Assembly: GCA_026692885.1 (NCBI GenBank)
Contig: JAPLNJ010000682.1
Span: forward strand, 1-14,799
Length of the DNA: 14,799 nucleotides
Direction of reading: 5' to 3'
Source of the DNA: Planctomycetota bacterium
GTDB lineage: Bacteria > Planctomycetota > Planctomycetia > Pirellulales > Pirellulaceae
Part shown: one piece after another, positions 3,064 through 14,799 of the stretch
Layout: every line of letters begins with the position of its first letter
How positions within the stretch are numbered: the first letter of the stretch is position 1
Made by a program: the position numbers and the translations under genes
Notes under the pieces: model-generated
The model's database searches: none
What the model saw: the letters and a program-made list of their open reading frames with translations, nothing else
What the model was told of the DNA's origin: nothing

Positions 3064-3598
3064 TGCATACGGACGCAGATGCAGGATGGGACGACGACTT
3101 ACCCCGGCGATGGCCTTGGTCGCCGTCGCCCTCCCCGCCCACGTCGGCGCTCGTCACGTCCTGGCGGCCAGTTTGGCCCACGGAGGCAATGGGCGAGGAG
3201 AACGTGACAGGCGCCAAGACTGGCGGGGCCGCGCCACACGCCCCCGGTAAGAGCGGGCGGTTCTGGGAACGAGTCATTGATCGCCAGGTGCGCCGAAGCA
3301 CACTCCTCCGGATACCCCCAAGTCAGCGCCTACAGGAACGACGCCATGCCTACGCCCCAGACCGGCGCCCGAATCACACTCGTCGCCATGACTGCTTTTC
3401 TTAGCTGACCGGAATCGGCGGTCGGCGTTCTGATCGATTTGGCCCGATGATCCCCGTCGTGTGTCACGCCGTGCACGCCGCCAGATAGATTTGTTTGTGG
3501 CCCCGGCCTGTTTCTTCACGCTAATCGGGCGACTTGTGTACTGGAAGCGGAGCGGCATCCCTTTGGCCAGTGCTTATCGCCCCACGATCGAGAAACCC
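3064..3598. other. About 530 bases with no supported gene
   Basis: I see no frame here with both a ribosome site and protein-like composition. A frame with ATG at 3189 and stop at 3404 has GGAGG only two bases before the ATG and an Arg/His-rich product. The stretch may be promoter-proximal DNA for the zinc-ribbon remnant or decayed sequence. Confidence 0.4.
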
Positions 3599-4289
3599 AT
3601 GCCAATCGAATTATGCGTCCCAACGACTTCCAAGCAAGTCGAAGATCACAACCGTGCGGTCCGTCGGCGAAGCGCGGACCGTACGTGGTACCGGAAGTCT
3701 TGCATCCGGTGCCAGAAGCCGGGGCCGTTCGCGCCTCACGAGTTGCGGCGTCGCGGCTTGCGCCTGATTGTCGACCGCACGGTCCTCTGCGTGTCGATTT
3801 GGCTGGCCCGTTGGCGGTGCAGGAAGTGCGGGTACGTGTTTACCGATTACCCCGACTTTCGTGCTTCCCTATAAGCGATACGCCGGTCCGACACTGCTCC
3901 ATCTGGCCGCCAGCTATCTGGAGCACGACCAGCAGTCCTATCGCGAAACCGTCAGTCCCGGAGGCCGGGTCACAGGCTATCAGACGCCGCCCGGTGAAGC
4001 CAACATCGACGAACGGGCTCTGCATCACAGCACGGTCTGGTGGATGCTGACTTGGTTGGGTAGCCAAGCGGCCGCGCTGGCCAAAGGATGCCGCGTCATC
4101 CGGCCACATCACGCCGGCTCCGCTTGCCATCGCGTCCTCGATGCCGTGGCCCCGCACAAGTTCCGCAGCCCGGAACGTGAACAGGTGCTGCGTCTGGCGA
4201 AGCACCTACTGTATGTGACCACCGCGTGTGACCGGCCGTTGCCGGAAAGATTCTTCCCCCGTTTCGCGACACGATCGGGCTTCGGCTGA
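3599..4289 (+). pseudogene. Zinc-ribbon, transposase-like protein (DUF6431-like), frameshifted
   Basis: Two frames make one protein. From ATG 3599 the first reads MPIELCVPTTSK..., with a zinc ribbon of CIRC (codons from 3701) and CRKC (codons from 3818) followed by GYVFTDYPDF, and stops at 3874. The second continues the same family pattern from about 3864 (LPYKRYAGPTLLHLAASYLE...) to a TGA at 4289. A single-base indel at about 3862-3871 is enough to join them. The Cys4 ribbon followed by yPdf..lPyKRY is what I associate with DUF6431-type proteins, often found near transposase-like genes; the family name is from memory. A programmed +1 frameshift is possible, but I see no classic slippery site with stimulator. 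No terminal inverted repeats were found, so an insertion sequence is not called. Confidence 0.6.
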
Positions 4290-4338
4290 GGTACCTTCTG
4301 ATTCCGACACAGCGCCCGGTCCTTGTACGGAGTCAAAC

Positions 4339-4449
4339 ATGATGGATCGTAACGACGGAGACTGGGCCGTGTCTTGGTGCACGCTGTGGGGCCTCGTGCT
4401 GCTGGGAGGAATCTTCGAGCGGCAGCGCGAGCGGTGTCTCCGCCGCTGA
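4339..4449 (+). CDS. Possible small hydrophobic protein (36 aa)
   Basis: ATG 4339 has GGAG six bases upstream. The product MMDRNDGDWAVSWCTLWGLV... has one hydrophobic stretch (about residues 10-25), then a charged ERQRERCLRR end, so a short membrane-anchored peptide is possible. It ends 53 bases before the primase-helicase gene. There is no family recognition, so this is a tentative call based on the ribosome site and layout. Confidence 0.3.
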   Translation: MMDRNDGDWAVSWCTLWGLVLLGGIFERQRERCLRR

Positions 4450-4502
4450 ATCAAGCTGGTCCACCGAACGCGTTCCGCCGATTCTTCTAAGCATCGCCCA
4501 AA

Positions 4503-7307
4503 ATGGCCCTCGTACCACAACAGCAGATCGACTCGCCGGCGCAGAAGACTTCCACCAGATGTGACAGTCCAATAAGCCTCGGCGCGGATGGCCAAGAGCT
4601 CCTGCGCCAGGTCGTCAATTACTACCACGCGCGGCTGTTGGAGAATCCCGCCGCCCTGCAATACCTGAAAGAACGCGGCATCGACCAGGCGGAAGCAATC
4701 GAGCGATTCAGGATCGGCTTCTCGGACCGGACGTTAGGATTCCGCCTGCCAGTCAAGAAGGTTCAAGCCGGCGCCGGAATCCGTGGTCGGCTGCAGCAAA
4801 TCGGCATCCTTCGTGAGACCGGGCACGAGCAGTTCAATGGCTGTGTGGTGTTTCCGGTGTTTGCTGCCCAGGGAAACGTCTGCGAGATCTACGGACGGAA
4901 AATCAACGATAACCTCCGCAACGACACGCAGTACCGCTTGTACATGGACGCCGGATGTCGCGGAACGGAAACGCGTGGTGTGTGGAACCACGACCAGGGT
5001 GCTACCTGCAAGGAGATCCTCCTTTGCGAATCGATCATCAACGCCCTCACGTTCTGGTGCGCCGGCTACCGTCACGTCACGGCCAGTTACGGGCTGGACG
5101 GGTTTACGGACGAGCACCGGGCCGCGCTGGAACGCTGGGGCGTGCGGCGGGTGCTGATTGCTTATCGCCGAAACGAACTGGGCGATCGGGCGGCCGAGTC
5201 GCTGGCGGGCGAAGTCCTAATCCCGGCCGGATTCGAGTGTTTTCGAATCCAATTTCCGCACGGCATGGACGCCAATGAATACGCGCGGAAAATCACGCCG
5301 GCCACGCAAAGCCTGGACCTAGCGATCCGCCAGGCTGAATGGATGGGACGCGGACAGGACCGGGTCAGATCCGTGCCAGGGGCGGCCGCAAAGCTCGCAG
5401 ACACAAATCAAGCTGCTGACGAGCCGGGACAGCAACCTGAGCGCATGGCAGCGGACGATGGAGTCCGTGCCAGAGGCTTATGCGACGTGACTCCAGCGAG
5501 CGCGAGCCACGCGCCAACACCACTCGTGGTATCTCCCGGCCTTGTGGCCCCGAGGGACGTCGACGCTGAGGTCAAGAATGGTCAAGTCGACGTGACGCTG
5601 GGGAATCGCCGCTATCGCGTCCGTGGACTGGGCAAGAACATGAGCTACGACCAACTGAAGGTCAACATCCTCGTGTCCAAAGGCGATGCCGTGCACGTGG
5701 ATACGTTTGACCTGTATAACGCCCGGTCCCGCGCATCGTTCGTCAAGTTGGCGGCGACCGAGGTCGCTGTGGACGTCGAAGTCATCAAGAAGGACCTGGG
5801 CCGGGTGCTGCTGAAGCTCGAGGAGTTGCAGGACCAGCAGATCGCCGCGGCGCTGGCGCCCAGGGACCGGGCATGCAAGCTATCGGACAAGGACCAAGAT
5901 GCGGCCTTGGAACTGCTGAAGGATCCGAACTTGCTGCAGCGGGTAGCGACCGACTTCGATGCGTGCGGCGTAGTGGGCGAAGAAACGAACAAACTGGTGG
6001 GCTATCTGGCGGCCACCAGCCGCAAATTGGACAAGCCCCTGGCGGTGATGATCCAATCGTCCTCATCGGCAGGCAAGACGTCGTTGATGGATGCCGTGCT
6101 TCGGCTCATGCCGCCGGAGGAGCAGATCAAGTATTCGGCCATGACGGGCCAGTCCTTGTTCTACATGGGCCGGACAAACCTGAAGCACAAGATCCTGGCA
6201 ATCTCCGAGGAAGAGGGCGTCGAGCAAGCGGCCTACGCGCTCAAACTTCTGCAAAGTGAAGGCGAGTTGCGAATCGCCAGCGCGGGAAAGAGTGTCGACA
6301 CGGGCCGATTGGGCACAGAAGACTACCATGTGGAAGGACCGGTGATGATTTTCCTGACGACCACGTCGGACGAACCGGATTTTGAGTTGGTCAACCGCTG
6401 CTTGGTTCTGGCGGTCGACGAAGACCGGGATCAGACGCGGGCCATTCACCGGCGACAACGGGAAGGCCAGACACTCCGCGGGCTGCTGGCGACGCGGCAG
6501 AGCCAGCGGATCGTCAAGTTGCACCAAGACGCGCAGCGATTGCTTCGGCCGTTGGAAGTCGTCAATCCGTACGGGGAACAGTTGACGTTTCTCGACAACA
6601 AGACCCGCCTGCGGCGCGATCACCTCAAGTACCTGACGCTGATTCGGTCGATCGCCCTGTTGCACCAGTACCAACGACCCGTGCGCACCGCCACCTGCGG
6701 CGACGAGACCATCCAATACGTCGAGGTCACGCCGCACGACATTGCGGTGGTGAACGGCTTGGCCGCGGAAGTCCTGGGCCGCACGCTGGACGAATTGTCA
6801 CCCCAGGCCCGCCGTCTGCTGATCCTGCTGCACGACATGGTGTCGCAGAAGTGCCACGAGCTGGCCAGCGAACGGTCAGCGTACCGGTTTACCCGTCGGG
6901 ACGTGCGTGAAGCGATCGGATGGTCGGACTACCAGGTGCGCGTGCACTTGAACAAGCTGGTGCGACTGGAATACGTGCTGGCCCACCGCGGGAGCCGCGG
7001 ACAGCAATTTGTGTACGAGCTGCTCTATGACGGCCAGGGCCGCGAGGGACAGCCATTCTTGTTGGGCTTGATTGATCCGGCCAGACTCAGCCCACACGGC
7101 ATCCCGCAACCGGCGGCCGAGGTGGGCGACGAGTACGATGCGAGGTCGGAGGGGGCGGGAACCAACTTCGAGCATACCGGGGAAAAGGACGAGCCCCCGA
7201 CGAGCGTCCAAAGTGGGCTCAAAGAGGCGTCATTGCGGCCATCGAATCCGCTCGCAACTCTCTCTGTGTCAGCGAGTAACGGCGAAGACCGCGGCCAACC
7301 TGGATGA
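4503..7307 (+). CDS. Primase/helicase-type replication protein with degenerate Toprim
   Basis: 934 residues. ATG 4503 is the first start after an in-frame TAA (4488-4490); no Shine-Dalgarno is visible. Residues ~30-135 resemble the DnaG catalytic-core entry (ALQYLKERGI, FRIGFSD, VVFPVF). Residues ~171-260 are Toprim-like: Glu176 in LLCESIINAL, the ASYGLDG turn, the VLIAY strand and a closing MDANEYA. The expected DxD is R222-R-N224, so both metal-binding Asp are gone. There is no CHC2 zinc finger at the N-terminus. After a linker (~285-355), residues ~455-760 form a P-loop ATPase: SSSSAGKT (519-526, Ser for the first Gly), ILAISEEE (564-571) as Walker B, FLTTTSDEP as a sensor strand. Residues ~785-850 look like a winged helix (FTRRDVREAIGWSDYQVRVH). 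It probably unwinds DNA for the element; priming is doubtful. Confidence 0.8.
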   Translation: MALVPQQQIDSPAQKTSTRCDSPISLGADGQELLRQVVNYYHARLLENPAALQYLKERGIDQAEAIERFRIGFSDRTLGFRLPVKKVQAGAGIRGRLQQIGILRETGHEQFNGCVVFPVFAAQGNVCEIYGRKINDNLRNDTQYRLYMDAGCRGTETRGVWNHDQGATCKEILLCESIINALTFWCAGYRHVTASYGLDGFTDEHRAALERWGVRRVLIAYRRNELGDRAAESLAGEVLIPAGFECFRIQFPHGMDANEYARKITPATQSLDLAIRQAEWMGRGQDRVRSVPGAAAKLADTNQAADEPGQQPERMAADDGVRARGLCDVTPASASHAPTPLVVSPGLVAPRDVDAEVKNGQVDVTLGNRRYRVRGLGKNMSYDQLKVNILVSKGDAVHVDTFDLYNARSRASFVKLAATEVAVDVEVIKKDLGRVLLKLEELQDQQIAAALAPRDRACKLSDKDQDAALELLKDPNLLQRVATDFDACGVVGEETNKLVGYLAATSRKLDKPLAVMIQSSSSAGKTSLMDAVLRLMPPEEQIKYSAMTGQSLFYMGRTNLKHKILAISEEEGVEQAAYALKLLQSEGELRIASAGKSVDTGRLGTEDYHVEGPVMIFLTTTSDEPDFELVNRCLVLAVDEDRDQTRAIHRRQREGQTLRGLLATRQSQRIVKLHQDAQRLLRPLEVVNPYGEQLTFLDNKTRLRRDHLKYLTLIRSIALLHQYQRPVRTATCGDETIQYVEVTPHDIAVVNGLAAEVLGRTLDELSPQARRLLILLHDMVSQKCHELASERSAYRFTRRDVREAIGWSDYQVRVHLNKLVRLEYVLAHRGSRGQQFVYELLYDGQGREGQPFLLGLIDPARLSPHGIPQPAAEVGDEYDARSEGAGTNFEHTGEKDEPPTSVQSGLKEASLRPSNPLATLSVSASNGEDRGQPG

Positions 7308-7620
7308 AAAGGGACAAAGGGGGCCTTCGCACAACAGCACGAACATCGTAGCGGCTATGTCTCTCACGACGTTTTCGCCGGGCATGGTACCCCGTCGGTC
7401 GATTGTCTGCAAAGCCGATCATTCACGTGCGCGGTCCCCATTACAGCGAAGCCGAGCGAGACGTTGGACGAACGCGGCGGCATCCTCATGTGTCCGCCTT
7501 CAGTTGTGTTGGTGGAAGCTACCCGCCGAAGGGACGGAGGAAGAGCCTGGGTCCGTCCGTTCGGCTTTTCGCCTTCAGCTCCGGGCTCGATGACCTACGA
7601 CTGAAAGGAGAATGGGAATT
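7308..7620. other. 313-base gap without a gene
   Basis: This gap between the primase-helicase and recombinase genes has no frame with protein-like composition and a start of its own. Its one clear structure is the hairpin at 7526-7564. It ends with the recombinase ribosome site AAGGAG (7605-7610). Confidence 0.5.
7526..7564 (+). terminator. Candidate terminator hairpin before the recombinase gene
   Basis: CCGAAGGGACGGA (7526-7538) pairs with TCCGTCCGTTCGG (7552-7564) at 12 of 13 positions around a 13-base loop, followed directly by CTTTTC. This fits an intrinsic terminator with a short T-run, or a leader structure for the recombinase transcript, whose start codon lies 57 bases on. Confidence 0.45.
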
Positions 7621-8757
7621 ATGGCTCCGAAGAAACGCCAAGGCGAGGCCCCGCCGCGTCCAGTGGTGGGCGATCCGAGCGATCCCCAAGGGATGGTCGT
7701 GATGTTGAACCAATTCCTGGACTGGCTGCGAGCACGCAACTACGCAGAACGCACGGTGGAATGTCGCCAAATGTACCTGGCCGAGTTTATCAACTGGGCA
7801 GCGATCCGGGGCGTGGCGCGTCCCAACGAAGTGACGCGGGCCGTGCTCGAACGTTACCAACGTTACTTGTACCACTACCGCAAGAAGAACGACCAGCCGT
7901 TGTCCTTCCGCAGCCAACACAACCGCTTGCTACCGCTGCGCAGTTGGTTCAAATGGCTCACACGCAACCGCCACGTGACCTACAACATGGCGGCAGACCT
8001 GGAGCTGCCCCGACTGGAGCATCGGCTGCCGAAACACGTACTGACGCAAAGTGAGGTGGAAACGGTCATCAACCAGACGAACGTCACCGTGCCGCTGGGG
8101 GTACGCGACCGAGCGATCCTCGAAGTCCTGTACTCGACTGGCATGCGTCGTGTGGAACTGACGGGCTTGCAGCTGTACGACGTGGATGGCGACCGCGGCA
8201 CGGTCATGATTCGCCAGGGCAAAGGCAAGAAGGACCGCATGGTGCCGATCGGACAGCGGGCTTTGTCCTGGATCGACAAGTACACGCGAGAGACCCGTCC
8301 CACGCTGCTGGTCAATCCCAGCGAAACGACGCTGTTCTTGACGGCCGATGGCGTACCACTGGCGAAGAGCTACCTGTCGCAACTCGTCAGTGACTACGTC
8401 ACGACGGCCAACCTCGGCAAGACCGGTTCCTGTCATTTGTTTCGCCACACGATGGCCACGTTGATGCTGGAGGGTGGCGCCGACATTCGGTTCATCCAGG
8501 CCATGTTGGGCCACGCCAACATCAGCACCACGCAGATCTACACGCAGGTCTCAATTCGCCAGTTGAAGCGAATCCACGAGGCCACGCATCCGGCAAAAGC
8601 GGGTCGGGAGGCCGATGACGGACGTCCAGTGGACGCCGTTGAATCGGGGCACGAACTTCCGGAGGGCTCGGCCGAAGATGCTTCATCTTTGGGTGGTGAC
8701 GAAAGCGGCAAACCAAGAACCGATGCCCCGATGGATCACGACGACACGCAGTCGTAG
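7621..8757 (+). CDS. Tyrosine recombinase/integrase, XerC/D-like
   Basis: I prefer ATG 7621: AAGGAG (7605-7610) is 10 bases upstream, while ATG 7612 is only one base from it. The 378-residue product has an N-terminal SAM-like core-binding domain (about 25-125) and a C-terminal catalytic domain (about 140-320) with all six active-site residues visible: Arg176 (STGMR), Lys203 (GKGKKDR), His272 and Arg275 (HLFRH), His298 (LGHANISTT) and nucleophile Tyr307 (IYTQV). The last ~50 residues are an acidic, probably disordered tail absent from XerC/D. It cuts and rejoins DNA at specific sites, so it can integrate or excise this element or resolve its dimers. Unlike the two enzymes upstream it shows no lost catalytic residue. 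It is the last replication-module gene and directly precedes the RHS cassette array. Confidence 0.93.
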   Translation: MAPKKRQGEAPPRPVVGDPSDPQGMVVMLNQFLDWLRARNYAERTVECRQMYLAEFINWAAIRGVARPNEVTRAVLERYQRYLYHYRKKNDQPLSFRSQHNRLLPLRSWFKWLTRNRHVTYNMAADLELPRLEHRLPKHVLTQSEVETVINQTNVTVPLGVRDRAILEVLYSTGMRRVELTGLQLYDVDGDRGTVMIRQGKGKKDRMVPIGQRALSWIDKYTRETRPTLLVNPSETTLFLTADGVPLAKSYLSQLVSDYVTTANLGKTGSCHLFRHTMATLMLEGGADIRFIQAMLGHANISTTQIYTQVSIRQLKRIHEATHPAKAGREADDGRPVDAVESGHELPEGSAEDASSLGGDESGKPRTDAPMDHDDTQS

Positions 8758-8765
8758 TCTTTTTT
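8741..8765 (+). terminator. Weak terminator overlapping the recombinase stop codon
   Basis: ACGAC (8741-8745) and GTCGT (8751-8755) form a short stem that includes the first base of the stop codon; after AGTC a run of six T follows (8760-8765). The stem is only 5 bp, so termination may be partial. Confidence 0.35.
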
Positions 8766-8810
8766 CCCGCGCTGGCTAACCTCCTCGTCTTCGCCAGTTC
8801 CCTTCTCAAC

Positions 8811-8873
8811 TGCCTGGGCGACCCGTTTTGGCGGTTCACGGCGTCGCCCAGGGCAGCAGAAAAATATCTGCTG
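8811..8873. repeat. Two overlapping hairpins after the recombinase gene
   Basis: TGCCTGGGCGAC (8811-8822) pairs with GTCGCCCAGGGCA (8843-8855) with one bulged base. Next to it CAGCAGA (8854-8860) pairs with TCTGCTG (8867-8873) around AAAATA. They lie just past an intact recombinase gene and before the first cassette boundary, so an attachment-site or terminator role is conceivable. Confidence 0.5.
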
Positions 8874-8916
8874 TTGCTCTCGCATTGATCTCAATCGGCG
8901 CGGTACAATTCCGGTT

Positions 8917-8956
8917 GCAGTCCCGATGGCGACTGCCCGCTCTTTGACAATCCGAC
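8917..8956 (+). repeat. Cassette boundary element 1 (hairpin + TCTTTGACAAT motif)
   Basis: GCAGTC (8917-8922) pairs with GACTGC (8931-8936), then CCGC and TCTTTGACAATCCG (from 8941). This is the most diverged copy of the element seen at 10710, 12745 and 14380. It marks the left edge of the array, about 160 bases after the recombinase stop. Confidence 0.55.
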
Positions 8957-8977
8957 ATCCAGCTCCTGATTCCGCGC

Positions 8978-9982
8978 GTGCGCCACGTGCAAATCCGAAA
9001 AGGGGGTCACGTCGCCACTGGCCGGAATTCCCTGTACGCCTGTTCCGCGACCTTCGCTGAAACTTGGTCCCGCCCTAAGGCCAGCGTCGCTCCGAAGTAC
9101 GGCAGTGCTTACGGCGGAGCGCGAAGGTTCAATCGTGTTGATCCGTTCGGCGGGAACCGTAATGATCCGCTAAGCCTGCACAAGTACGCATATGTGCACG
9201 GCGATCCGGTCATGGGCGCTGATCCAACCGGGTTAATGACGATGTCCGAAGGACTCGCCACCATGACAGTGCGAGCGGCACTTGTAAGTACGCTCGCGCT
9301 TACGGCCTGGCGAATTGGCGGAGCAGCCCTCATTTCTGGCCTTACCGGAAGGTATCCAGATGCATTGGCGTTTGGTGGCTACCTTTCAAGTGGGCTAGGT
9401 AGTCTGACGCACACGATCGGCGGAATTGAAATAACTCTTGACCCAGCCCGCCACGAGGCCGAAGTTGCCATCTTCGGTGGTTGGGAACCTTCCCTTGGGC
9501 TTGGCCCCCCCGATCCGCACGCGCTTATTTCAAACACCTCAGGGTTTGCGGGACTCTGGTCGCAAATCAGAGCCCATACGGAGTGGGGTTTCTTCGAAGC
9601 ATGGGAATGGCATGCTCCCGCGGCAAAAGGGTGGCTTCCTAGACCGCTGTTTTCCCTGCAAGGAGTGTCATTCGCCGGTTACTTTACTGGTATCGAACAT
9701 GTTCCGGATGACGGCACGGTGATTTACATCAACGGGACGAGTAGTAATCGCGATTACAGCCTTTTTGGAATACTAGGCGGGACGTTTTCACTTACGACGT
9801 TCAATATACCAGACGAAGGTGCCTACATCGCTCTAGCCACAGCGCTGGAGACATCCTTCACTTGGTGGACGGCCTACCAACTACCTGGAATCCCTTCTCT
9901 GGGAGCGTCGATCATAGCAGCTGGCCCTTCGGCGGCACTCGCCGGCGCGAGCGTTGGCTTCTGGGTTGATCAGAAATGGTGA
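8978..9982 (+). CDS. Orphan RHS core + hydrophobic C-terminal toxin candidate (cassette 1)
   Basis: The RHS-associated core (FNRVDPFGGN...SLHKYAYVHGDPV...DPTG) is encoded at 9128-9232, preceded by shared repeat sequence. The listed GTG (8978) has no ribosome site, and no YD repeats precede it, so this is the detached 3' end of an rhs gene, not a complete one. The unique domain after DPTG (about 250 residues) starts with a hydrophobic stretch (MTVRAALVSTLALTAW), has a Trp/Gly-rich middle (about GWEPSLGLG to GYFTGIEHVPDDGTVIYINGT) and a second hydrophobic stretch near the end (LGASIIAAGPSAALAGASVG). I do not recognise the toxin fold. In RHS systems this region is released as the effector. The following gene is an integral membrane protein, which suggests that the effector acts in the membrane or periplasm; this is inference. 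Confidence 0.65.
   Translation: MRHVQIRKGGHVATGRNSLYACSATFAETWSRPKASVAPKYGSAYGGARRFNRVDPFGGNRNDPLSLHKYAYVHGDPVMGADPTGLMTMSEGLATMTVRAALVSTLALTAWRIGGAALISGLTGRYPDALAFGGYLSSGLGSLTHTIGGIEITLDPARHEAEVAIFGGWEPSLGLGPPDPHALISNTSGFAGLWSQIRAHTEWGFFEAWEWHAPAAKGWLPRPLFSLQGVSFAGYFTGIEHVPDDGTVIYINGTSSNRDYSLFGILGGTFSLTTFNIPDEGAYIALATALETSFTWWTAYQLPGIPSLGASIIAAGPSAALAGASVGFWVDQKW
9032..9232 (+). repeat. Shared cassette repeat, copy 1 (RHS core)
   Basis: Direct repeat of ~200 bases running from CTGTACGCC to the DPTG codons. Best conserved are GCGCGAAGGTTCAATCG (9119-9135) and the segment encoding LHKYxYVHG. Other copies: 10915-11117, 12938-13137, 14574-14773. Relative to copy 4 it carries one extra base just before the core. 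Confidence 0.8.
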
Positions 9983-10010
9983 TCTAGCACTTTCGAAGGC
10001 ACCGAAAGCC

Positions 10011-10604
10011 GTGTCAAACGTGGTGAATCGAGAAGAACTTGCGCTTGCGTACTGGGGCAGCGTCGTTGTGGGAAACGCGACGACGGCGGCTCTTTGCGTC
10101 GTGGGCTCGCTCCTTGTGCTCGACATGCAGCTTGATTTGCATGTCAAGATCATCAGCGTGAACCGGGTTAGCGGGCCACTTCTGTTGATTTTCCTCTTCT
10201 GGTCCGAGTGGTTGCTAGCGGCAGTCGTCAGACGGTCTGGCGCCCAGTTTCCCATCGGCAGTAGAGTTTCATGCCTTCTTGGCTTGACTTACTTCCTTCT
10301 CTTCGTCTTCATGTGGAGGTTCGCACGATCTCAATTCGCGACATACCTTGACCACTTGGACTCCTTGTATCCCACTCGCAGCCCAGGCTATTCAACCGAA
10401 CGTTTTGATTACGCCTCCGGGTTATTGTGTCTTTATGGTCATCTTTTTATTCGGGCATCCCTGAAACTCTGGTGTGTCGTTGCTGCTTGCCACGGGGCGC
10501 AGGACGCCGCAACGACGACAGCTGCTCAGCCCGGAGACTCAGGAACTTCGGGCATGAAGCCCGATGCGTCCACCAACGAAGAAGAAATGCGGCGGGGCGG
10601 ATAA
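10011..10604 (+). CDS. Putative membrane immunity protein of cassette 1
   Basis: I chose GTG 10011, 28 bases after the toxin stop, over an in-frame TTG (9954) inside the toxin gene; AAGG (9996-9999) is a weak ribosome site. The 197-residue product has four likely membrane helices: about WGSVVVGNATTAALCVVGSL, PLLLIFLFWSEWLLAAVV, CLLGLTYFLLFVFMW and GLLCLYGHLFIRASLKLWCV. A polar tail rich in Ala, Thr, Ser and Glu follows. It is unlike any family I can name. The position straight after an orphan RHS C-terminal domain, same strand, is where cognate immunity genes lie in rhs, cdi and other polymorphic toxin loci. A multi-span immunity protein would fit an effector that attacks the inner membrane. 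Confidence 0.6.
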   Translation: MSNVVNREELALAYWGSVVVGNATTAALCVVGSLLVLDMQLDLHVKIISVNRVSGPLLLIFLFWSEWLLAAVVRRSGAQFPIGSRVSCLLGLTYFLLFVFMWRFARSQFATYLDHLDSLYPTRSPGYSTERFDYASGLLCLYGHLFIRASLKLWCVVAACHGAQDAATTTAAQPGDSGTSGMKPDASTNEEEMRRGG

Positions 10605-10709
10605 ATGGGGCAGATAATTGGTGCTGGGAGACGCGTGCAAGTCTGCTCACCATATACGGCAGCCCGACTCGTCACCTGACGCGCGAAAGGGCGAGACGAC
10701 TCGACGCGA

Positions 10710-10752
10710 GCGGCGAGCATTTTGCCGCAGATTGTTCTTTGACAATTCGGTG
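10710..10752 (+). repeat. Cassette boundary element 2
   Basis: GCGGC (10710-10714) pairs with GCCGC (10724-10728); AGATTG and TTCTTTGACAATTCGGTG (10735-10752) follow. Inside it ATTGT (10731-10735) and ACAAT (10742-10746) form a second small inverted repeat. A GC hairpin followed by a T-rich stretch could terminate the upstream immunity transcript. TTGACA looks like a -35 box, but no -10 is found at the right distance. Confidence 0.65.
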
Positions 10753-10844
10753 CCCGACCCGATCCGCCGCGCCCGCCCGGCGGCGGCCATCTCGGCAGCT
10801 GTGCCCTCATGGGTAATTAGCAATCGCCCCCACATCCATCGCCG

Positions 10845-11876
10845 GTGAGGGGGCGTGCGCGGTGCGATACGCACTCGGAAGAAATGGTCTACCGAGGTGT
10901 TACTCCAAAAACTGCTGGACGCCTGTTCCTTACCTGGCCGCGCAAGTCCTTGCCGCTCTACGCCGATCGTCGCTCTGAACCGCGGTGGCTTCTATGGCGG
11001 GCGCGAAGGTTCAATCGCAGTGATCCGTTCACCAACCCTCCGCTCGCGGACCCGCTGAGCCTGCACAAGTACTTGTATGTCCATAGCGATGGCATCAACT
11101 TCAATGATCCATCGGGACAGTTCGAGGGTCTAGTCGGGACCATGAACGTCAGTGCGATTCGAGCCAACTTGGGAAGCATGCAAGGCGACATTGGCGCCAA
11201 AGTGGCCGAAGCGGTAGCTGCCGTTGCAAGCGGCGCGACCGCGACTTCAGCGCTGATTGGTTTGCTCGGCGCAGACTTGGCCCGTCTCGGGCTTCCCATG
11301 TTCGCGAAGGCGCTTGGCATGGCCCTAGGCACTTTTCAAAAAGGCATGCGTTCAATCGGCCGGATTCTACCTCGAACGGCCAGCGACAAGGTGGTATTGC
11401 CAGGGATCTTCGGTTTCACTGGCGACGCTGTGGAACGGCTGTTTGATAAGAGCCTCGCGAGCCAGATCAACGTCGGCTCAGCCAAAACACTCAAGCGTGA
11501 ACTGGAAAGCCTCTACGGCTTTGCAAGTGGATCATTGGACAACATTGAGGCGCAAATCCACCACGTCATTCCTCAGTCGTTCAAGACCGATGCGTTGCTA
11601 AAGAAGCTCGGCTTTAACGTAGACGCCGCGCTTAACGCTCTCCCATTGCGAGAAGCAAAGCACCTCGGATCACACCCAAACTATAATAGCGCAATCAAGA
11701 AGGTGCTCGACGAAATCAAGCAATCCAAAGTCTCCATCGGAGAGCAACGCGAGTTAGTCCTTGAGACCATCGCCAATGCGACAACGGCAATTCTTGATGG
11801 CATGTCGGTGCGGAAGACGTCGGGGTCTATCAGTGTTGACGAGTGGTATAGTGCAATCAAGCCGATGCTTCTATAG
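10845..11876 (+). CDS. Orphan RHS core + AHH/HNH-Endo VII nuclease toxin (cassette 2)
   Basis: The frame opens at GTG 10845 without a ribosome site; ATG 10884 (preceded by GGAAG) is an alternative. The core FNRSDPF...LHKYLYVHSDG...DPSG ends at 11117. A helical, Ala/Gly-rich linker follows (AKVAEAVAAVASGATATSAL), then the toxin domain. IHHVIPQSF (His-His codons 11559-11564), a later LKKLGFNVDAALNALPL and HPNYNSAI (from 11673) match the layout of the AHH family of the HNH/Endo VII nuclease superfamily: an xHH motif with a general-base His, an Asn in the middle and an HP.Y element. Such toxins cut DNA or RNA in the target cell. All the motif residues I can recognise are present, so the domain looks active. 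No RHS shell (YD repeats) is encoded upstream. Confidence 0.75.
   Translation: MRGRARCDTHSEEMVYRGVTPKTAGRLFLTWPRKSLPLYADRRSEPRWLLWRARRFNRSDPFTNPPLADPLSLHKYLYVHSDGINFNDPSGQFEGLVGTMNVSAIRANLGSMQGDIGAKVAEAVAAVASGATATSALIGLLGADLARLGLPMFAKALGMALGTFQKGMRSIGRILPRTASDKVVLPGIFGFTGDAVERLFDKSLASQINVGSAKTLKRELESLYGFASGSLDNIEAQIHHVIPQSFKTDALLKKLGFNVDAALNALPLREAKHLGSHPNYNSAIKKVLDEIKQSKVSIGEQRELVLETIANATTAILDGMSVRKTSGSISVDEWYSAIKPMLL
10915..11117 (+). repeat. Shared cassette repeat, copy 2 (RHS core)
   Basis: Starts CTGGACGCCTGTTCC and ends at the DPSG codons. GCGCGAAGGTTCAATCG lies at 11001-11017. This copy is 203 bases. The stretch before the core (TTCTATGGCGGGCGCGAAGG) is nearly the same as in copy 3. 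Confidence 0.8.
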
Positions 11877-11887
11877 GGGGAGCTGTC

Positions 11888-12475
11888 ATGTGTACGCTCG
11901 ATACGAATCTAGCAACGACGCTTATCGATGAAGTGGTCGAATGGGCGCGATCGGATACGTTGTTTGTCCAGAAGGAAATGGCTGGGCAACTCGAACGCCA
12001 ATTCGGTATGGAGAAGATATCGTGTGTCATCAAGGACGGCCGGGACTTCCTACGCGCGATTGACGTTACGAATGAGCAAACGTCCTATCAAGAGTTGGAT
12101 GAGATTATCGAACAAATCGAATCCTATTATAGGACGGTGGACTCCTTTAGCCCCCTGGACTTTAGTCATTCAATTATTGACAAGGTATCAGCAGCCTGTG
12201 AGTCGGTTGGTAAACAATCCAGCGTAAGGCAACTCGCCGAAGCGATGACTTCAATCGAGCGAAGATGTGGTGGAATTGACGAGATGTCCGCGCACATAGC
12301 CACGACGGTCGCGCGTCACCTTTCAGCCGTGATCTACGCACGGGCCTTGACGTTAAGCAGACGGTATGGACCCACTGAGATGGTCTTCCTTGCGTACCGA
12401 AAGGGGTTGTTTCCGTTCGGATGGAGTTGGGAGAATGCGGAGGTCTTGTGTGTTGACCCGAGCCGTGTCGGGTGA
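11888..12475 (+). CDS. Putative immunity protein to the AHH nuclease (cassette 2)
   Basis: ATG 11888 lies 11 bases after the toxin stop, with GGGGAG overlapping and following that stop codon at a 5-6-base spacing: a good site and a tightly coupled pair. The 195-residue product is soluble and helix-rich, with an acidic middle (QELDEIIEQIESYY) and a Trp/Phe-rich end (FPFGWSWENAEVL). I recognise no named immunity family. Acidic surfaces are common in proteins that neutralise nucleases by blocking the active site, so the role follows from position and charge. In its first 120 bases I count 62 G+C, visibly below the recombinase gene (41 of 60 in one line), consistent with acquisition from elsewhere. 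Confidence 0.65.
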   Translation: MCTLDTNLATTLIDEVVEWARSDTLFVQKEMAGQLERQFGMEKISCVIKDGRDFLRAIDVTNEQTSYQELDEIIEQIESYYRTVDSFSPLDFSHSIIDKVSAACESVGKQSSVRQLAEAMTSIERRCGGIDEMSAHIATTVARHLSAVIYARALTLSRRYGPTEMVFLAYRKGLFPFGWSWENAEVLCVDPSRVG

Positions 12476-12937
12476 CAGCGAGGCGTCGATTACCACGAGG
12501 ACGCTACGGCAGCCGAAACGACAGTGGGCGCGCGTGCGTAGTTTCCAGGCGGGGTTGCGGCCCGGTCAGTTCTGTTGCGACGGATGGTGTCGCCACCGGT
12601 GAAGCGGGAATGGGGATGGAAAGGTGCAGGCACCAAATATGGCGAATGTGGGACGACCGGCGTGGCCGGGTCCCGACGCACAATAGCTCCTCCGAGGAGC
12701 TGACCTGGGGCGTGATCCCCTCGCAGGCGAACAAGGGGACGTGAGCGGCACTCAGGCCGCGGCAGTTCTTTGATAATTCGGTGACGGAAAGCAGGCTGCT
12801 TCGCCGGCTGCATCCATGCGCCCGGCGGATCGTCTCCACTGGACGGCCGCTCGTCCCGCCGCGACGAAACCAAGTCCTCCGCCAAGTCTTGTGCAATTCC
12901 GAGAAAGTGCTCTATCGCGTCCCGCTTTCCAGAAAGA
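12476..12937. other. Gene-free spacer between cassettes 2 and 3
   Basis: No convincing frame. It holds a perfect palindrome AGCTCCTCCGAGGAGCT (12685-12701), a GGTGC/GCACC mini-hairpin near 12623, and boundary element 3 (12745-12783). The last ~150 bases are the variable spacer between boundary element and shared repeat; the equivalent spacers in cassettes 2 and 4 have about the same length but little obvious identity. Confidence 0.5.
12745..12783 (+). repeat. Cassette boundary element 3
   Basis: GCGGC (12745-12749) pairs with GCCGC (12756-12760), then GGCAG and TTCTTTGATAATTCGGTG (12766-12783), one base different from copies 2 and 4. It sits about 270 bases past the cassette 2 immunity stop. 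Confidence 0.65.
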
Positions 12938-13137
12938 CTGTACGCCCGTTCCCCGCAGCTTTGCGCAACTCCTTGCCGCCTTGACGGAACCGTGGCCCTA
13001 TATTTCATCGGCGTTTATGGCGGGCGCGAAGGTTCAATCGCCTGGATCCCTTCTTCGGGCACGTCCAAGATCCGTTGACGCTCCACAGGTTTCTCTATGC
13101 CCGCGGGGATGGGGTGAACTACAGTGATCCGACAGGC
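12938..13137 (+). repeat. Shared cassette repeat, copy 3 (RHS core)
   Basis: Runs from CTGTACGCCCGTTCC to the DPTG codons. GCGCGAAGGTTCAATCG lies at 13024-13040. An in-frame TGA at 12982-12984 interrupts its upstream part, so only the core portion can be translated in the toxin frame. Confidence 0.8.
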
Positions 13138-13803
13138 AAAGACTTTACGCTGGGCGGTTGCATGGCAACGGGCGCAATCATCGGCGGACTAGCTGGCATG
13201 GTCGGCGGTGCGGCAGTCGGCGCATATTCCTCGGGGCAGCTTCTGAGTTTCAAGACCTTGGAATACGGGTTGATTGGACTGGTCGGCGGGGCCGCTGCCG
13301 GTGCCCTCGTCGGGGCGTCGGTGTTCTTCGGTCCCCAAATGGTCAGTTTTCTGATCGGGAGGGGGAGTTTCTCCGTCACGCTGAAATTGGCATTCCGCCA
13401 CACAATCTCCGACCGCATCCTCTGGACCGGCTTCGCTCTGGGAGCGGTGGCAGGGCTGCTAAATCCGGAACTGAAGGCACCGATCTTATCAAGCGCGACA
13501 TGGTGGAGCATAGACCGGAATCTCCGGTTCCTTACCGGTCTTGAGGTGGCAACGAGGCAGATCACGACGAGCTTCGGGCCTGCCGTGGCAGATGCCGTTC
13601 TGAAGCTCTCAAGGGCCTACCGGGGCGGGACATTTTGGGCGATGAAATTCACGGCGGGCTTCACCATTGGCACGGTCTGTGGATATACCGCCAGACAGGT
13701 CTACGATTTGGCGAACGAACTCACCGGTTGGGCAAACGAGGCCGTCGCAGGCGGCGGCCCTGGCGACGACGCGATTGCGGACGGCTTTCTGGAACAAGAT
13801 TGA
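13075..13803 (+). CDS. Orphan RHS core + Gly-rich hydrophobic toxin candidate (cassette 3)
   Basis: The toxin frame is open from 12985 and encodes the core FNRLDPFFGHVQDPLTLHRF...DPTG from 13033. The only start-like codon is TTG 13075, which is really the Leu of DPL inside the core, so no true start is seen. The domain after DPTG (about 220 residues) is strongly hydrophobic at first, with glycine-zipper-like runs (GAIIGGLAGMVGGAAVGAYS and GLIGLVGGAAAGALVGASV). A later WTGFALGAVAGLL and a helical end (TARQVYDLANELTGW) follow. Glycine-zipper segments occur in pore-forming or membrane-translocating parts of RHS and CDI effectors, so part of this may be the pre-toxin translocation region. I do not recognise a catalytic motif. 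Confidence 0.6.
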   Translation: MTLHRFLYARGDGVNYSDPTGKDFTLGGCMATGAIIGGLAGMVGGAAVGAYSSGQLLSFKTLEYGLIGLVGGAAAGALVGASVFFGPQMVSFLIGRGSFSVTLKLAFRHTISDRILWTGFALGAVAGLLNPELKAPILSSATWWSIDRNLRFLTGLEVATRQITTSFGPAVADAVLKLSRAYRGGTFWAMKFTAGFTIGTVCGYTARQVYDLANELTGWANEAVAGGGPGDDAIADGFLEQD

Positions 13804-13864
13804 GGCAGTTTTGTTGAACGACCCGGCGCGGCACACTCGCAAAGATAGAAGACGGAGGCTCACG

Positions 13865-14293
13865 TTGGCAAAGGACCAGCGCAGCGCATTCGAAGAACGG
13901 GTCCCCATGTCAGACCAGTTGTTCCTGGCGAAGATCGACGCCACTGGCGGCGATGCGGGTGTTCTCTTGGCAATTCGTAACGCGATGGCCGAATCTTGCG
14001 CGTTGCATGCCGAGTCGATTTATGACGACGACGAGTGTGATACACTCTGCAGCTTGAGCCCCTTTGGATGGGATCCGACGCCGCTCCAATGCGAGTTAGA
14101 ACGACTGCTTGGCACATCCTTGCCCGATGAGCTTGCCGCCGTGTTCCCAATTCCCGGCGGTTGGAAGTTCATCTGGTGGGATGGCGGCATACGGTTTCTC
14201 AGATGGAAACGAGAGAACCCCAATGCTGTGACGTTCGGCGGCTGGGCGAAGGCAATACTACTCCTTCTAAGAGAGCGCGGTTTGATCGGCTAA
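13865..14293 (+). CDS. Putative immunity protein of cassette 3
   Basis: TTG 13865 is preceded by GGAGG at a 6-base spacing and starts 61 bases after the toxin stop. ATG 13907 in the same frame lacks a ribosome site but is possible, and an open frame extends upstream over the toxin end. From TTG the product has 142 residues, soluble, with an acidic patch (YDDDECD), FGWDPTPLQCELERLLG and a Trp-rich stretch (PGGWKFIWWDGGIRFLRW). No family recognised. The place is that of a cognate immunity gene. It does not look like a membrane protein although its partner is hydrophobic, so the neutralised activity may be cytoplasmic. Confidence 0.55.
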   Translation: MAKDQRSAFEERVPMSDQLFLAKIDATGGDAGVLLAIRNAMAESCALHAESIYDDDECDTLCSLSPFGWDPTPLQCELERLLGTSLPDELAAVFPIPGGWKFIWWDGGIRFLRWKRENPNAVTFGGWAKAILLLLRERGLIG

Positions 14294-14379
14294 GTTGCCA
14301 TAGAAGAAGCCGAAAAGCACAGGGAATAGGGTCAAGACTTGACGCTTGATGAGTGACGGGACAGGACACGTCGAAACGA

Positions 14380-14422
14380 GCGGCGGCCAGACCGCCGCGG
14401 ATTGTTCTTTGACAATTCGGTG
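14380..14422 (+). repeat. Cassette boundary element 4
   Basis: GCGGCG (14380-14385) pairs perfectly with CGCCGC (14393-14398) around GCCAGAC; GGATTG and TTCTTTGACAATTCGGTG (14405-14422) follow. The last 18 bases are identical to element 2, about 3.7 kb away. The hairpin plus T-rich stretch comes 86 bases after the cassette 3 immunity stop. Confidence 0.65.
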
Positions 14423-14545
14423 ACCGAGGCGGGCATTCAGTCTGTTGGACATCAGCTAACGGAGAAGGCGTGTCTGCCCGCGAGCCCAGGATGTGCACCG
14501 TTGTAAAGGCGAACCGCGGCCCTCTCGCGCAGACACCAAAATTAG

Positions 14546-14799
14546 GCCTACCGGGTCCTGGCTCCAGGGCTTGCTGGACGTCCGTCCCCTACCTCGCAGC
14601 CCAAATCCTCTCCGATCAACGCCGAGCGTCGCTTTGAAGTACGGCGGTCCTTCCGGCCGGCGCGAAGGTTCAATCGCCTGGATCCGTTCCCTGGGAACGC
14701 CAACGATCCGCGAAGCCTGCACAAATATGTCTACGTGCATGGTAATCCCATCAATGGCCTGGACCCGCTGGGCCTGTGGTCTATCAGCGGCGTTCTCAG
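14546..14799 (+). CDS. Orphan RHS core, start of cassette 4 (3' partial)
   Basis: The frame is open from 14546 (after an in-frame TAG at 14543-14545) to the window end, with no ATG, GTG or TTG before the core. The core reads FNRLDPFPGNANDPRSLHKY...YVHGNPINGLDPLG from 14669 to 14773. The unique domain begins with LWSISGVL and is cut by the window edge, so its toxin type cannot be told. Of the four cores it looks closest to what I remember of intact planctomycete RHS proteins (PGNANDP...INGLDPLG). Confidence 0.65.
14574..14773 (+). repeat. Shared cassette repeat, copy 4 (RHS core)
   Basis: Runs from CTGGACGTCCGTCCC to the DPLG codons. GCGCGAAGGTTCAATCG lies at 14660-14676. Its AAGTACGGCGG before the core is also recognisable in copy 1. 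Confidence 0.8.

Follow-up and report, generated by a model that had tools for sequence, protein, structure and literature searches.

The 14,799-nt stretch of Planctomycetota DNA analyzed here in its entirety (assembly GCA_026692885.1, contig JAPLNJ010000682.1, forward strand; hereafter the window) is probably the right-hand part of a member of a family of integrative elements that swap the tips of polymorphic toxins. The window, of planctomycete genome type, contains four modules on the same (+) strand downstream of a tyrosine recombinase; it holds the recombinase end of the element and at least four stored tips, the left end being outside or lost. In the proposed mechanism a XerC-type integrase would recombine at a short sequence, J (GAAGGTTCAATCG in the window), that codes for the conserved border between toxin shell and tip. 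The incoming element would have the order J–tip–immunity…primase–integrase–leader and its primase/ATPase would probably serve replication as a circle, as in P4-type satellites. Integration at the J of a shell would give the shell a new tip and push the old tip, as an orphan, behind the leader that forms the right end of the element. Repeated integrations, together with loss of the mobility genes or with cassettes devoid of them, would then yield an array of the type leader–J–tip–immunity; the internal modules of the window, which carry no mobility genes, may be remnants or trans-mobilised cassettes.

The sequence GCGCGAAGG was located at 9119, 11001, 13024 and 14660 (spacings 1882, 2023 and 1636 nt), in agreement with the original prediction of four same-strand modules about 1.9, 2.0 and 1.6 kb apart. 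Each module is made up of a conserved leader, an RHS core end of ~38 residues and a toxin-like tip that differs from module to module; the predicted succession of a different tip and a small gene was found in modules 1–3, the tip of module 4 lying past the window end. The 17-mer GCGCGAAGGTTCAATCG is identical in all four modules and opens a frame of the form ARRFNRxDPF...LHKYxYVHGDP-like...DPxG. The RHS core model TIGR03696 (NCBIfam) is matched in its second half by each of the four tips (positions 43 to 75/76 of 76; E 2.5e-5, 0.0097, 0.0065 and 4.9e-6 for modules 1–4; 16.4–27 bits), the scores staying under the curated cut-off of 32.5, as is to be expected of half a domain; the assignment to orphan RHS tip modules was borne out in this form. 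Direct repeats of 68–145 nt at 62–77% identity (families D1–D3) connect the modules, and no DNA-level match between them was found outside leader and core (blastn 1e-6, stretches ≥60 nt), in line with the earlier view that the cores had diverged and are not recent duplications. The predicted ~200-base core repeat does encode the end of the core; it is longer than stated, starts before a motif ~260 nt upstream and consists mostly of the apparently non-coding leader.

Module 1 (9119–9982, +; J motif GCGCGAAGGTTCAATCG at 9119–9135, RHS core end, toxin-like tip) gave no Pfam match and is followed by a small gene at 9954–10604 (+; no family match). Module 2 (11001–11876, +; J at 11001–11017, RHS core end) ends in an AHH nuclease tip (Pfam AHH, 3e-11, 43.7 bits against a cut-off of 22.3); its small gene lies at 11888–12475 (+; no convincing family match). 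Module 3 (13024–13803, +; J at 13024–13040, RHS core end) has a glycine-rich tip and a small gene at 13907–14293 (+; no family match; longest open reading frame (ORF) behind the tip, 13775–14293). Module 4 (14660–14799, +; J at 14660–14676, RHS core end) has its tip cut by the window end, past which any small gene of this module would also lie. No convincing family was obtained for tips 1 and 3. The small genes of modules 1–3 are probably immunity genes, as judged by position behind the tip only; Pfam and NCBIfam searches gave no convincing immunity family for them.

No continuous rhs reading frame through the cores, one of the findings named beforehand as speaking against orphan modules, was detected in the window. 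In module 3 a stop is placed 39 nt upstream of the core with no start codon in between; in module 4 the frame is open for 114 nt upstream of the core, a stretch with no ATG, GTG or TTG; in modules 1 and 2 start codons do occur in frame upstream of the core, at non-conserved places. When the modules of two relatives (below) were included, a start codon (ATG/GTG/TTG) between the last in-frame stop and the core was absent in 8 of 13 modules, the other five, with modules 1 and 2 of the window among them, having at least one at non-conserved places. The modules are regarded as orphan tips because they begin at the core border and mostly lack a start codon of their own.

These relatives were obtained by an exact pattern scan requiring the 17-mer (genome_contigs collection, one genome per species, 84,980 species). 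Matches came from two metagenome-assembled genomes (MAGs) with a common project prefix in their isolate names. One, of Candidatus Anammoximicrobium (G001), has six modules behind a copy of the recombinase on contig C318 and one on C132; the other, of Phycisphaerae (G002), has two modules and one tip-less leader on C229. GCGCGAAGGTTCAATCG is identical in 11 of the 13 cored modules of window, G001 and G002 and has one mismatch in the other two. For the seven modules that came from the scan this conservation is a matter of selection, since the pattern demanded the 17-mer; of the six unselected modules, the four of the window are identical and C318_3 and C229_2 have one mismatch each. The codons GCG CGA AGG TTC at J are fixed in 13/13. 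The tip of window module 3 is homologous over its length to those of C318_4 (39%, 252 aa) and C132_1 (37%, 252 aa).

The window and C318 share 83.4% DNA identity over 4578–7321 (primase, 2753 nt) and 81.2% over 7529–8951 (recombinase; 86% amino acid identity between the two copies), and downstream of the recombinase they have only leader and core in common. The machinery is thus syntenic and the cassettes differ, which means that the content of the array turned over and the machinery stayed. In the window the tyrosine recombinase (7612–8757, +; XerC-like subfamily PRK01287; NF002331, 452.8 bits against a cut-off of 371; Phage_integrase, 5e-41) adjoins a toprim primase-like gene (4503–7307, +; Pfam Toprim_2 4e-10, DNAG_N 5e-9, weak P-loop match). 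A 92% copy of the 3' end of the recombinase with a leader of the first type was met inside the C318 array at 26040–26695 (L021, 10040–10695) and is a second recombinase remnant. To the left of the unit, C318 contains a very long repetitive reverse-strand adhesin-like ORF (L020, 1–8345; 2781+ aa).

A shell of matching type is present in G001, where, at E ≤ 0.001, TIGR03696 matched C140 and nothing else outside the array contig; a shell fragment of 397 nt with 89% identity to C140 is present on C132. The statement that no parent shell is in sight therefore holds for the window and not for a relative with the same kind of array. C140 is a single open frame of 5182 codons that stops base for base at ...GCCACCGGAAGGTTCAATCG (border ...GGAAGGTTCAATCG); since the frame ends at the junction motif, the shell lacks exactly the part that the orphans would supply. 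The assembly of C140 stops where alternative tips would diverge. GAAGGTTCAATCG, common to shell and leaders, is taken as the J of the window lineage. In G002 the tip-less leader is joined to unrelated DNA right after GAAGGT, and this overlap is our best guess for the exchange point. On C229 of G002 (L023, 4300–4580) a leader ending GCGCGAAGGT abuts an unrelated reverse-strand gene; a more complete copy is found on C132 of G001. A further copy of the J motif on C317 of G002, where no RHS gene was seen, was taken as chance.

The recombinase was then sought among 241 genomes of the family of G001, three of which (G001 included) matched at E 1e-110. On a chromosome-sized contig of G172 the order is rhs–tip–ORF–helix-turn-helix gene (HTH)–CHC2 primase–recombinase–leader–orphan tip, the rhs running off the left side of the stretch examined. 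In G218 a homologous rhs is fused directly to a homolog of the G172 orphan tip (41% over 204 aa): the blocks of shell and second tip are contiguous at J in G218 and 7652 bp apart in G172, with TGCTCCAGAGA at both ends of the insert. On comparison of these sequences G172 and G218 are a filled and an empty site, the one such pair seen. In G162 (contig C24) a 712-codon gene devoid of a family match precedes the unit, which is present in two tandem copies with a period of 7101 bp and GCCCCAAACAGT at the boundaries; a pretoxin HINT domain (3.5e-7) was found in the last tip. It is from the single empty/filled pair and the exact tandem copies that the element appears to bring its own tip and to push the old one behind. 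Primase relatives at 1e-60 were present in 12 of 392 genomes of the phylum, G001 included (two candidates scored per genome). Among the 13 loci from this search, an RHS core stood near the primase in six; TIGR03696 was over the cut-off in three (L103, L104, L113) and below it in the others (L105, L111, L102; E 0.0023 to 5e-7). A 13-nt repeat in G450 (L103) lies within a longer shared core and was set aside as not decisive.

The same unit was found outside the phylum. The recombinase matched 17 of 72,556 plasmid records at E 1e-70, of which 10 were viewed; two, both from Caballeronia, bear no annotation. A toxin-, adhesin- or tip-like gene is close by in seven of the eight annotated plasmids (in that of Salmonella at a distance of about 5 kb). 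The eighth, a Shigella circle of 8,758 bp (xerC, HTH, SymE, an insertion sequence; no primase annotated), carries a small gene (WP_023155272.1) found in E. coli SCU-113 behind an RHS or ADP-ribosyltransferase tip. In Enterobacter pJBIWA003_2 the unit is placed behind a cdiA carrying TGTTGAGAATAAC, the codons for VENN, with a period of 7685; the copies of the leader, 933 nt long, show no difference as far as the last base of TGTTGAGAATAAC and the tips begin matching at its first base, which defines J to the base from both sides. Behind the leader of pJBIWA005_2, a related plasmid, the same J is found (877/933 leader bases identical). The Lonsdalea populi plasmid (11,289 bp) contains two tips starting in the RHS core border, small genes, HTH, SymE, RelE/DinJ, primase and xerC, with little else annotated, and its gene content fits a free circle of the unit. 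The Janthinobacterium array was rejected as an example, having no clean module repeats and only a decayed primase copy.

With the 1110-nt xerC of the Shigella plasmid as query, 53 of 5,426 E. coli genomes matched at 186 places, all chromosomal. Eight E. coli loci were viewed (SCU-113, SCU-111, 200164, KW21 and IH5 from among the matches listed; R12, A36 and MP1 through a tip search): in all eight, rhs genes lie next to xerC and primase, and SymE and HTH are present in seven (not in IH5). The same J was observed both at the shell/tip border and behind the recombinase in G172, G162 C24, Enterobacter, Paraburkholderia and E. coli SCU-111. The array does stand behind a recombinase, as originally predicted; this recombinase is not incidental and forms with the primase a unit placed at shell/tip borders. 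The arrangement is therefore not confined to planctomycetes, as the unit also occurs at such borders in E. coli, Enterobacter and Paraburkholderia. As cargo, the Enterobacterales units (L139, L140, L142–L147) carry HTH, often SymE and, in some plasmids, RelE/DinJ-type pairs. No phage relative of the integrase was matched (tblastn 1e-50, 50,697 phage records), and the J pattern gave 0 matches in viral contigs.

An ordinary orphan rhs-CT/immunity array as in enterobacteria, with tips swapped by RecA-dependent recombination in the conserved core and the recombinase as a passenger, is an unlikely explanation of the window. It accounts for the published pattern of orphans mostly devoid of start signals with immunity genes behind them (Poole 2011, PMC3150448; Koskiniemi 2014, PMC3967940, as far as the parts concerned go), and one of our own comparisons speaks for it, namely that of E. 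coli R12 and MP1 given below. Against it, the orphan cores share only about 110 nt at 62–77% among themselves and, on the upstream side, 13 nt with the shell, to be set against the 522 bp at 95% used in the exchange proposed in the relevant part of Koskiniemi 2014 (PMC3967940); the element boundaries lie exactly at J in Enterobacter and G162; and the recombinase/primase unit recurs at such loci across phyla.

An integron-like store of cassettes, which overlaps the integrative element proposed here, is possible to a lesser degree. J–tip–immunity–leader cassettes would enter singly at the proximal leader, which would be attI-like, the internal leaders being attC-like. All modules seen do point one way, and the 5' part of the proximal leader (module 1 of the window, C318_1, and C318_6 behind the recombinase fragment) is unlike that of the internal leaders. 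The enzyme, on the other side, is XerC-type and stays below the cut-offs of the integron-integrase models (TIGR02249, 122.8 against 265; PRK15417, 78.4 against 435), the moving unit in the relatives includes the recombinase, and recombinase or primase remnants occur inside two arrays (C318 26040–26695; Janthinobacterium).

Several results weigh against the tip-swapping element or limit its support. E. coli R12 and MP1, whose Rhs, primase and xerC protein records are the same, are distinguished by one complete element. The sequences switch from one leader to the other ~700 nt before J is reached, inside 65 nt of identity. Because of this position excision at J in R12 was rejected, and the difference is ascribed to homologous recombination of the two leaders, regardless of which strain is the ancestral one. 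The two processes may work side by side, elements entering at J through the integrase and being removed through leader homology. The 11-nt J of G172 is within further similarity, part of it maybe shared coding, and is less sharply defined for that reason; the candidate J of Paraburkholderia (GGCAGCTTCCTGA, 13 nt) is likewise in a region of further similarity and less sharply bounded. At the other seven of the 13 phylum loci, all with more distant primases, a blastp screen revealed no RHS core. In the window the left end of the element and the shell are beyond view, the internal modules have no recombinase, and J is seen only as right-hand copies: a search to the left of the recombinase gave no J at one mismatch or fewer and a single 2-mismatch match at 4757, inside the primase gene. 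In C318 there is none within two mismatches, and blastn of the left flanks of window and C318 gave no DNA similarity. The shell of G001 sits on a different contig (C140) from the array (C318), and the end of C140 is the contig end, so that its agreement with the junction motif could be coincidence. The codon constraint is not unique to J: in the DPF motif TTC is kept in 13/13 and CCG in 12/13, partly forced by the search pattern, and the DPxG codons vary. The window primase has no match to the CHC2 zinc finger, found in its G172 relative at 1.5e-21; ~260 nt are missing at the start of its gene (window 4532–4578) relative to C318 12151–12455, where CHC2 is apparently encoded, and this copy may, from its sequence, be defective. 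For the leaders, folding of nine stretches gave z-scores of −1.72 to 0.41, covariation was slight (RNAalifold term 0.08; each of two alignments had a single two-sided pair), and a scan of the + strand showed no promoter-like site.

The conserved leader upstream of each core is apparently untranslated and has about 260 nt (181 nt in module 1). A motif TTCTTTGA[C/T]AATTCGGTG is located ~260 nt ahead of the core at 10735, 12766 and 14405 (found 3, expected 0.01 by shuffling), and module 1 has a divergent form, CTCTTTGACAATCC, near 8939. The first, recombinase-proximal leader, delimited by alignments (8900–9118, +; boxA-like CGCTCTTTGACAATCC at ~8938–8953), is of the type of C318_1 and C318_6; the internal leaders 2, 3 and 4 are at 10690–11000, 12715–13023 and 14360–14659 (all +), with boxA-like motifs at 10732–10751, 12763–12782 and 14402–14421, respectively. 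Module 1 has one extra base directly before the core, which argues against translation through the leader.

The 16S leaders of relatives carry boxA (TGATCTTTGACAATTTGGTA in G001; TGATCTTTGACAATTTGGTG twice in G172; close forms in G218, G211 and G002), and the boxA of the relatives' RHS arrays is the sequence of their own rrn leaders. The boxA 16-mer TCTTTRACAATTYGGT gave 12 exact matches in five genomes (reversed control, 0): three in 16S leaders, one ahead of 23S, three at large tRNA arrays, one on a contig with Cas4-Cas1 and four in leaders of RHS arrays. Of the eight places that are not in RHS arrays, seven are parts of long untranslated transcripts and one is the cas locus (with a putative CRISPR array), where the 16-nt motif occupies L155 (G001 C147) 3082–3097. 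On this basis, and as ribosome-free tips would invite Rho, we infer that the array boxA does the same job as that of rrn operons: it would keep Rho from stopping transcription over the untranslated tips and carry it on to the immunity genes, which would stay expressed. In leaders of other families (nine stretches checked) no boxA was found at up to three mismatches, for which reason boxA seems particular to the window lineage. The motif is the one of rrn antitermination through the Nus complex and is present in 16S and 23S leaders of the same genomes; the difference is its place here ahead of arrays of untranslated toxin tips, with a candidate function.

Joining at the RNA level, with the leader as the 3' half of an intron and the tips trans-spliced to the shell mRNA at J, is highly improbable. 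It would suit an apparently non-coding leader that ends at an invariant motif, the 8/13 tips with no start codon and a shell contig ending at the same motif. A ribozyme or intron at the leader was rejected, as the window gave no match to Rfam at E values of up to 5 and next to no covariation was seen; besides, J is a DNA-level insertion boundary in other genomes. The following candidates were also discarded: a promoter before module 1 (the −10-like TACAAT was unsupported by the scan); a hairpin before boxA as boxB (the z-scores given above); a reading of GGGTTCGAnnCCC, a stretch present in some leaders, as tRNA-like (no tRNA in the window by ARAGORN); and the leader as a family-wide feature (model R1, run over the 241 genomes of the family of G001, matched strongly in G001 only, with weak partial matches in 11 other genomes, two of those regions being only pattern-searched).

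Of the upstream genes, a small zinc-ribbon-like protein (3461–3874, +) is syntenic with C318 11193–11900; window 3612–4532 and C318 11206–12151 show 67.8% DNA identity, and the C318 version matches DUF6431 at 1.9e-6, that of the window only at 0.17. A PD-(D/E)XK nuclease gene (652–1641; weak Cas4 match, 8.7e-9, below cut-off) is outside the conserved unit.

Orphan cdiA-CT/cdiI and rhs-CT/rhsI modules are in print (Poole 2011, PMC3150448; Koskiniemi 2014, PMC3967940), and the orphan region of E. coli EC93 is described in one of the passages concerned as transcribed, with its immunity gene expressed. As portrayed there, such modules resemble those of the window in being detached tips that start with the conserved border motif, mostly devoid of start signals and with an immunity gene behind (probable in the window); the window adds an integrase/primase unit, a conserved untranslated leader and boxA, and the published exchange is homologous recombination. 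Polyimmunity loci lie next to recombinases such as XerC/D in several cases, for which a role in collecting immunity genes was suggested (Zhang 2012, PMC3482391); element, site and tip replacement are features of the present proposal and not of the passages on those loci. A literature search leaving out most subscription journals found no paper that connects the toprim–XerC element with tip exchange (absence from print is not established by it); orphan arrays and polyimmunity loci near XerC/D recombinases, to judge from the portions of the sources seen, were known already.

Better known elements offer partial parallels. Islands in tRNA genes, and e14 and phage 21 in icd, insert in the 3' part of a gene and restore it; a site-specific integrase, short direct repeats and a gene end supplied by the element are in common, whereas the end supplied here is not the old one: it alters the toxin and comes with a probable immunity gene. 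In integrons and shufflons a tyrosine recombinase stands beside a row of stored coding ends; here the enzyme is XerC-type, with no integron-integrase match over the cut-off, and the modules are not mutually inverted.

The usual answer to the origin of new polymorphic toxin tips is homologous recombination. A broader proposal, on which we are evenly divided, is that small integrative plasmids across phyla use the shell/tip border as attachment site, bring a new warhead and its antidote, keep the gene in frame and retire the old warhead into an immunity archive (boxA-protected in the window lineage); border motifs such as VENN and the RHS core end would be conserved partly as integrase sites, and orphan arrays would be the sediment of repeated integrations. 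If true, tip exchange by a dedicated integrase at a border motif would be a genetic programme open to assay; the shortness and exactness of the border as a DNA motif and the rows of orphan tips would be accounted for, and new toxin–immunity pairs could be found by following the recombinase. The boxA leaders suggest that bacteria may shield an archive of untranslated toxin ends from Rho, keeping the immunity genes on.

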